Source: an uncultured Acidimicrobiales bacterium
GTDB taxonomy: Bacteria > Actinomycetota > Acidimicrobiia > Acidimicrobiales > SZUA-35
NCBI GenBank assembly: GCA_937925335.1
Contig: CALEWY010000009.1
Span: forward strand, 1-64,000
Reading direction: 5' to 3'
DNA: 64,000 bases
Below are positions 23,764 to 26,221 of this stretch, piece after piece. The stretch's first letter is position 1. Each line of letters begins with the position of its first letter. The notes beneath the pieces are model-generated. The model had not been told where the DNA came from. It did no database searches and saw only the letters and a program-made list of their open reading frames with translations. A program made the position numbers and the translations under genes.

Positions 23764-23884
23764 TTACTCTGACCTCTACTCCGACCACGTTGGGTTGAAC
23801 AGCAGTCGTTGATGGGTCCTGCCCTTCACATCGCTGTTCATGCAGGTCAGAAGGTTGTCCCCTCGGCTCGCGGTCGATGGGCGG

Positions 23885-23890
23885 TACCCT
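23885..23890 (+). promoter_or_regulatory. Leaderless-type -10 box (TACCCT) before rsiG-like gene
   Basis: TACCCT, six bases (GCCAGA), then GTG 23897. The same TACCCTGCC string precedes dut and rex. Confidence 0.5.
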
Positions 23891-23896
23891 GCCAGA

Positions 23897-24445
23897 GTGA
23901 TTCACGAGCTCGAACGTCTTCTCGATCCGTCGGTTTTGACCGGCCTGACCTCACGACCGATCGACCAGTTGCGTCGCGTTCGGGTCGACTGCACGCAGGT
24001 TGAGGGCGACATCTCCCTCGTCCGTCGGGTGGCCCAAGGTCGTCTCGACATCGTGGGCCATGAGACTCGCCGTCGTGCTGGTGATGAAACCGCCGAGGCC
24101 GACGTGCCCGGCCTGTTGTTCGATCTTCCCGGCCTGATGACCGATGCCCCGGCTGCCAGCGGTGGAAGTGTGCCGGGTGCTCGTGCGGTGCAGATCGGCG
24201 AGCCCGGCCCCGTCGCCGCAGCGCTGGTGGAGCAACTCGACGCGATGGCTTCGCCGAGCGACCTCGGTGGCGTCGATCAGATGACCGATGAGCAGCTCCG
24301 CGAGCTGTTCGAACGCATTCGCGCGTTCGAGGTCGAGCTGTCATCGATTCGGCGACAACTGCACGAACGAATCGATGCCATCCAAGGCGAGATTGGGCGT
24401 CGCTACCGCGACGGCGAAGCATCGGTCGATTCGATTCTGGGCTGA
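23897..24445 (+). CDS. rsiG: RsiG-like c-di-GMP-responsive anti-sigma protein
   Basis: A 182-residue protein carrying the RsiG signature E-x3-S-x2-R-x3-Q-x3-D exactly once, at E36-S40-R43-Q47-D51, and a second copy at E145-S149-R152-H156-D160 in which His replaces Gln. In Streptomyces, RsiG uses two copies of this motif on antiparallel helices to bind a c-di-GMP dimer and then holds the sigma factor WhiG inactive. The helical ends (residues 1-55 and 130-175) and a flexible Gly/Pro-rich middle fit that fold. GTG 23897 is supported by the TACCCT box. The partner sigma gene is not in the window. Function here is inferred from the motif. Confidence 0.75.
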   Translation: MIHELERLLDPSVLTGLTSRPIDQLRRVRVDCTQVEGDISLVRRVAQGRLDIVGHETRRRAGDETAEADVPGLLFDLPGLMTDAPAASGGSVPGARAVQIGEPGPVAAALVEQLDAMASPSDLGGVDQMTDEQLRELFERIRAFEVELSSIRRQLHERIDAIQGEIGRRYRDGEASVDSILG

Positions 24446-24467: not shown

Positions 24468-24944
24468 ATGGCCTCACGTTCCTCCCAAGCTCGCGGTTCG
24501 GGCTCAGATGCGTCCGACTCTGACGCGGGTGCAAATGCGGGTCCCAGTGATGGCGCAAAGCTCGGCGAGTTCATCAAAGAGCAGCGTCGCCTTGCCGAGC
24601 TTTCTGTTCGCCGGCTCGCCGAACTCGCTGGGGTGTCCAATCCGTACCTGAGCCAGATCGAACGCGGGTTGCGCCGGCCGTCGGCCGAGATTCTTCAGCA
24701 GATCGCCAAAGCGCTCGAGATCAGCGCGGAGACCCTGTACGTTCAGGCGGGCATCCTCGATGCCGAGCGCTCACCGGCTCCGTCCGATCTCGAAACGGCC
24801 ATCCGTCGAGCGACGGAGCTGACCGAGGAGCAACGCGCAGCACTACTCGGTGTGTACCGAAGTTTCCTTCCGGCTCGGGCTGCGTCAGCTGCCGCTGACT
24901 CAGCCGATGTCGAAGGTGAGTTGGAAGATCCCGGCGACGCGTGA
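24468..24944 (+). CDS. XRE-family helix-turn-helix regulator
   Basis: A 158-residue protein. After a Ser/Gly/Asp-rich leader, residues about 30-90 form a Cro/C1-type HTH: LGEFIKEQRRLAELSVRRLAEL, AGVSNPYLSQIERGLRRPSAE, ILQQIAKALEISAETLYVQAG. A helical C-terminal extension with LTEEQRAALLGVYRSFL follows. It resembles small actinobacterial regulators of the ClgR/XRE type, but the target is unknown. It starts 23 bases after the rsiG-like stop and overlaps mshA by four bases, so the three may form one operon. Confidence 0.85.
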   Translation: MASRSSQARGSGSDASDSDAGANAGPSDGAKLGEFIKEQRRLAELSVRRLAELAGVSNPYLSQIERGLRRPSAEILQQIAKALEISAETLYVQAGILDAERSPAPSDLETAIRRATELTEEQRAALLGVYRSFLPARAASAAADSADVEGELEDPGDA

Positions 24945-26221
24945 TGTTGAAGACTCACGTGAGCGGATCAAGCACCAAAGAGCTGCAGCGAGTTGCTGTG
25001 TTGTCGCTCCATACCTCACCGTTGGCCCAGCCGGGGACCGGCGATGGCGGCGGCATGAACGTGTATGTGCGCGAGCTCGTGTCGGCGCTCGCGCAAACCG
25101 GAGTGCAGTGCCGGGTCTACGTCCGGCGATGGCGCGCTGATCTTCCGGATCTCGTCGAGGTCGAGCCAGGTTTCGAAGTTGCGCACGTCACGGCCGGGGC
25201 ATTCGACGCATCCAAAGAGGAGCTCGAACCCCTCGTCTCAGACTTCGCCGACGCCGTTGCGGCCGACCTTGAGACGTTCAACGCCGACGTCATCCACGCC
25301 AACTACTGGCTGTCCGGTGTTGCCGGGCAGATCCTGAAGCGCCGGCTCGGTCTGCCGCTCGTCACCACCTTCCATACGCTCGCTCGGGTGAAAGCGATCA
25401 GTGGCGACCCCGAACCCGAGCGTCGTGCTCGGGCCGAAGCTGAAGTGATGGCGTGCGCCGATGCGGTGCTCGCCAACTGCACCCCCGAAGCAGAACAGCT
25501 CGACCAGTTCTACGACGCCGACCCAGAACGCATCGAGATCGTTCCGCCCGGTGTTGATCACGCCTTCTTCTCACCGGGCAACCAGGCCGGGGCTCGTTGG
25601 GCGCTCGATACTGACGATCGGCCGCTGTTGTTGTTCGTCGGTCGGATCCAACCCCTGAAGGGTGTGGATGTTGCCGTCGAGGCACTCGCCAAACTCGAAC
25701 GAACCGATGCCCGCCTCTGGATCGTCGGTGGTGCGAGTGGCGCAGGCGGTTCGACCGAGGTCGACCGGGTCCGGTCGCTGATCAGCGACAACGGTCTCAA
25801 CGATCGAGTTCGCTTCATCCCTCCACAACCACATCATCTGCTGTCGACCTTCTATCGAGCGGCCGATGTCTGCTTGGTCCCCAGCCGTTCAGAGTCCTTC
25901 GGCCTGGTCGCACTCGAAGCAGCGGCATGTGGCGTGCCAGTGGTGGCATCCGCAGTTGGTGGGTTACTCACCCTGGTCGAGCACGGCCATACTGGCTACC
26001 TCGTGGAGAGTCGCGACCCCGATGAGTACGCGGCATGGGTCGACACGATCCTGGCCGACCCGGTGTTGGCCCGGCGCCTCTCGGTGTCGAGTGCCGCTCG
26101 CGCTCGCACCTATACCTGGAGCACCTCGGCACACCGGCTTCGCCATCTCTACTCCGACCTGTCAACCCAAGCTCCGGTGCCATGTGAGGCGCCGCGAGCT
26201 CGTGTTGCGTCAGAGTTCTAA
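24941..26221 (+). CDS. mshA: D-inositol-3-phosphate glycosyltransferase (mycothiol)
   Basis: A 426-residue GT4 glycosyltransferase. RVAVLSLHTSPLAQPG and GDGGGMNVYVREL are the hallmark N-terminus of MshA, which joins N-acetylglucosamine to inositol-3-phosphate in the first committed step of mycothiol synthesis. The UDP-sugar site is seen in LLFVGRIQPLKGVDV and the ESFGLVALEAAACGVPVVAS (E-x7-E) motif. The following YbjN-domain gene repeats the mycobacterial mshA neighbourhood. The GTG start overlaps the XRE stop (GTGA); ATG 24944 is the alternative. Confidence 0.94.
   Translation: MMLKTHVSGSSTKELQRVAVLSLHTSPLAQPGTGDGGGMNVYVRELVSALAQTGVQCRVYVRRWRADLPDLVEVEPGFEVAHVTAGAFDASKEELEPLVSDFADAVAADLETFNADVIHANYWLSGVAGQILKRRLGLPLVTTFHTLARVKAISGDPEPERRARAEAEVMACADAVLANCTPEAEQLDQFYDADPERIEIVPPGVDHAFFSPGNQAGARWALDTDDRPLLLFVGRIQPLKGVDVAVEALAKLERTDARLWIVGGASGAGGSTEVDRVRSLISDNGLNDRVRFIPPQPHHLLSTFYRAADVCLVPSRSESFGLVALEAAACGVPVVASAVGGLLTLVEHGHTGYLVESRDPDEYAAWVDTILADPVLARRLSVSSAARARTYTWSTSAHRLRHLYSDLSTQAPVPCEAPRARVASEF

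Follow-up and report, generated by a model that had tools for sequence, protein, structure and literature searches.

RsiG anti-sigma factors are scattered throughout the Actinobacteria (Schumacher et al. 2021, PMC8325347). In Streptomyces venezuelae (structures 6pfj and 6pfv), RsiG carries twin motifs on two antiparallel helices that share 33 per cent identity, and its partner WhiG contacts c-di-GMP through K57, G61, and R62. The RsiG of Rubrobacter radiotolerans (7lq2-7lq4), an organism that does not sporulate, has a single E(X)3S(X)2R(X)3Q(X)3D motif and acts as a homodimer. The output of the switch is sporulation in Streptomyces and type IV pili in Rubrobacter. The same study found twin-motif RsiG in three of four Acidimicrobiales species, and single-motif RsiG along with the switch in non-sporulating unicellular actinobacterial genera. 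It reported conserved motifs, with WhiG genes in RsiG-bearing bacteria. The only exception described was a frequent Gln-to-His change in motif 1, and His is able to make the same stacking contact as Gln (PMC8325347).

Here we describe an rsiG gene in a 64,000-nucleotide window from an uncultured Acidimicrobiales bacterium (contig CALEWY010000009.1), for which the genome assembly is 4.4 Mb and 82 per cent complete. An initial annotation of this DNA had presented the gene as an RsiG found outside Streptomyces, with the implication that this was new. Reports of RsiG from Acidimicrobiales and from unicellular actinobacteria that do not sporulate date from 2021 (PMC8325347), and because the family had by then been reported in related bacteria, the present gene is an ordinary, added member of it. 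Our computations covered the gene, its motifs, the predicted fold, the partner and its kept c-di-GMP contacts, and the co-occurrence of the two proteins. The features of the locus are listed in Table 1.

Table 1. Features of the rsiG locus, with positions numbered from the first letter of the window.
Feature	Position	Strand	Evidence or description
rsiG, twin-motif RsiG-family anti-sigma factor, 182 aa	23897..24445	+	PF22802, phmmer, AF2 model, orthologues
Motif 1, residues 36-51	24002..24049	+	EGDISLVRRVAQGRLD, on predicted helix 22-60
Motif 2, residues 145-160	24329..24376	+	EVELSSIRRQLHERID, His at stacking position, on predicted helix 131-171
XRE-family (HTH_3) regulator, immediately 3' of rsiG	24468..24944	+	Pfam HTH_3, 53.6 bits
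MshA-like GT4 glycosyltransferase, overlaps end of XRE gene; neighbour, outside switch	24941..26221	+	TIGR03449

The identity of the product as a genuine twin-motif RsiG, which the annotation had proposed, is strongly supported. Translation from a GTG start codon to the stop codon meets no internal stops, and the Pfam RsiG profile (PF22802) matches the protein in two stretches at 84.3 bits, far above the cut-off of 27. Among solved structures, S. venezuelae RsiG ranks first by sequence (phmmer, 6pfj_T, E = 1.2e-13, residues 21-181), followed by the Rubrobacter protein. The present RsiG and that of S. venezuelae are similar in length and in their C-terminal tails (RRYRDGEASVDSIL here versus RRYREGEAQVDDLL in S. 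venezuelae), whereas the sequences of their inter-helix loops differ. An open reading frame on the opposite strand (23847-24422) was rejected as a shadow frame, since conservation across the family follows the plus-strand frame.

Both motifs are exactly as first annotated (E36-S40-R43-Q47-D51 and E145-S149-R152-H156-D160), and both fit E(X)3S(X)2R(X)3[Q/H](X)3D, with Gln in the first and His in the second. When the protein was shuffled 100,000 times, one such motif arose in 0.07 per cent of the shuffles and two in none. An alignment of 31 sequences from the class shows no variation at S40, R43, D51, E145, S149, R152, or D160, and conservation of 90 per cent or more at E36. An ungapped comparison of residues 22-62 with residues 131-171 gives 12/41 identical positions (29 per cent), such that the likeness between the motif helices reaches beyond the motif itself (internal duplication).

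An AlphaFold2 model built on the 31-sequence alignment has a mean pLDDT of 87.9, with each motif on its own long helix (residues 22-60 and 131-171, pLDDT above 90). The two helices are antiparallel in the model, as expected of an RsiG, and are predicted to form a coiled coil, in agreement with the crystal structure of RsiG-(c-di-GMP)2-WhiG. In Foldseek, the S. venezuelae RsiG complex takes the top ranks with four of its chains (E = 2.6e-5 to 1.3e-4), and apart from chains of that complex no Foldseek match reached E = 0.001. VIA-align gave Z scores of 13.5 (6pfv_T, over 156 residues) and 13.1 for two RsiG entries and 8.3 for the next match, an unrelated coiled coil about 5 Z units lower, though middling Z scores are frequent for long-helix proteins. 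For this reason, the sequence evidence carries more weight than the fold match.

As the annotation had noted, no sigma gene lies adjacent to rsiG. A profile search of the genome found a FliA/WhiG-family sigma factor on another contig, C63 (G000:C63), at 275 bits. This protein passes the NCBIfam equivalog model for WhiG (354.1 versus a cut-off of 343) and matches the WhiG of 6pfj with E = 1.1e-89. In its LVKYVAGR segment, the equivalents of K57, G61, and R62 are all three kept, as they are in WhiG proteins from 20 further genomes of the class. The genes around this whiG, named by eye from their translations, are comM-like, dprA-like, and peptidase-like genes together with rpsB, tsf, pyrH, and frr. 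The genome also has 35 GGDEF matches. The features whose absence would have spoken against the initial annotation, namely a WhiG-like sigma, GGDEF proteins, and antiparallel motif helices in the predicted fold, are thus all present. A second FliA/WhiG-family sigma is encoded on contig C39 (L056 15514-16440), near the dnaA, dnaN, recF, gyrB, and gyrA genes.

Orthologues of rsiG are present in all 39 genomes of the family and in 184 of the 296 genomes of the class. A genome was scored as having WhiG when it gave a TIGR02479 match at an E of about 1e-74 or lower, a threshold that we placed at a gap in the distribution of scores once that distribution was known. By this measure, 176 of the class genomes have both RsiG and WhiG, 8 have RsiG only, 8 have WhiG only, and 104 have neither (Fisher P of about 1e-59, ignoring shared ancestry). 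Many of the sixteen discordant genomes, though not all, are incomplete drafts. The single protein used as a query returned 18 named loci, with titles that refer to Acidimicrobiales, Acidimicrobiia, and uncultured actinobacteria or actinomycetes. This distribution confirms a wide occurrence of the predicted c-di-GMP-gated WhiG switch among Acidimicrobiia.

The protein is probably a c-di-GMP-binding RsiG, and it is very likely that, once loaded with c-di-GMP, it sequesters the C63 WhiG and releases it when c-di-GMP falls. We infer ligand binding and the sequestration and release of WhiG from the structures solved for Streptomyces and Rubrobacter. At high c-di-GMP, the antiparallel motif helices would clamp a partly intercalated c-di-GMP dimer, with E and S contacting the ribose, R and D reading the guanine, and Q and H stacking on it. 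The loaded RsiG would then bind sigma domains 2 and 4 of WhiG and hold it off RNA polymerase; as c-di-GMP falls, WhiG would be freed and its regulon transcribed. In its c-di-GMP/WhiG logic, this proposal follows Rubrobacter as well as S. venezuelae.

The protein could instead be a relative of RsiG that binds WhiG without needing or binding c-di-GMP, with the second-site His weakening the site. In favor of this reading, His stands where S. venezuelae RsiG has Gln, and the position tolerates change, since other members of the class have Phe there. However, the E, S, R, and D contacts are invariant at both sites save for E36, His is able to stack in the same way (PMC8325347), and the genome has both its GGDEF matches and a WhiG that keeps the c-di-GMP-contacting residues; we consider c-di-GMP independence improbable. 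Slightly less probable again is the C39 sigma as partner instead of the C63 WhiG. At 194.9 bits it is just above the FliA_WhiG cut-off of 189.6, and many genomes of the class contain at least two sigmas of this family. Yet it reads LVKHVVFQ where the C63 protein has LVKYVAGR, leaving it without the glycine and arginine that contact c-di-GMP, it scores far below the WhiG equivalog cut-off (191.8 versus 343), and RsiG is kept also in genomes with a single strong WhiG. Finally, long helices rich in E, R, and D are common and coiled coils yield spurious fold matches, so the motif pair might have arisen by chance in a coiled-coil protein unrelated to RsiG. This is scarcely conceivable given that no shuffle reproduced the pair and RsiG stands clear of all other folds in Z score, and it is refuted already by the RsiG profile match and the near-perfect co-occurrence with WhiG.

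The second site had been described as asymmetric. His156 in motif 2 is real, but it is no peculiarity of this organism. The stacking pair (motif 1/motif 2) is Q/H in 28 of 30 family loci, own locus included, and Q/F in the other two. Among 30 further loci of the class, a non-random sample made up of the highest-scoring profile matches, we found Q/H in 12, Q/F in 7, H/Q in 7, and H/H in 4. With 40 of the 60 surveyed loci, Q/H is the commonest state among the Acidimicrobiia sampled, and because it prevails in this way the asymmetry is ordinary. The present protein agrees with the published Acidimicrobiales RsiGs in order and architecture; in those, Gln-to-His was described for motif 1 only, whereas the His of this protein, like that of most sampled members of the class, sits in motif 2. 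With His and Phe both seen in motif 2, our survey slightly widens the variation known for the stacking position. It is possible that drift has replaced Gln by His or Phe at the guanine-stacking position of motif 2, and this may tune affinity.

Downstream of rsiG lie an XRE regulator and then an MshA-like glycosyltransferase gene, as annotated. Synteny by tblastn places an XRE gene 3' of rsiG in 22 of the 30 family loci and, in 28 of them, an mshA-like gene downstream, though conserved gene order by itself is no proof of a functional link between these genes and the switch. TIGR03449 covers the MshA-like protein over nearly its full length at 394 bits, below the curated cut-off of 462.5; judged by this match, it may be a divergent MshA. 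The XRE protein was also considered as a BldD-type c-di-GMP receptor, and this was tentatively set aside, as inspection by eye showed no BldD-like C-terminal binding motif. In the class sample, all eleven loci with His in motif 1 (L032, L035, L036, L040, L043, L047, and L049-L053) are without XRE and mshA-like neighbors within 1.5 kb, and most loci with Gln in motif 1 have them within that distance. There appear to be two genomic locations of rsiG that track motif type.

In contrast to Streptomyces, the present host is not known to sporulate. Nor was PilM found in its 82 per cent complete draft genome, which sets it apart from Rubrobacter, and nothing matched flagellin above the cut-off there. 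Across the family, RsiG is universal, while flagellin occurs in 15/39 genomes and PilM in 7/39, so, provided that the two markers can be trusted in draft genomes, neither can be the output shared by the family. These results narrow the question of what the switch controls in bacteria not known for Streptomyces-type spores, many of which, by the flagellin and PilM markers, are without flagella and type IV pili.

We also scanned the genome for the WhiG promoter TAAA-N15-GCCGATAA and obtained no exact matches. Allowing up to two mismatches to the flagellar/WhiG consensus gave 60 matches versus 62 in the reversed control, and the scan thus gives no readable regulon. Three sites have one mismatch; one of these abuts a start codon and another is within a region covered by long open reading frames. 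The third, TACA-N15-GCCGATAA on contig C70 (L158 198-224), is 53 nucleotides upstream of a ribosome-hibernation-promoting-factor-like gene, with secA downstream, and is a possible WhiG target or possibly a chance match.
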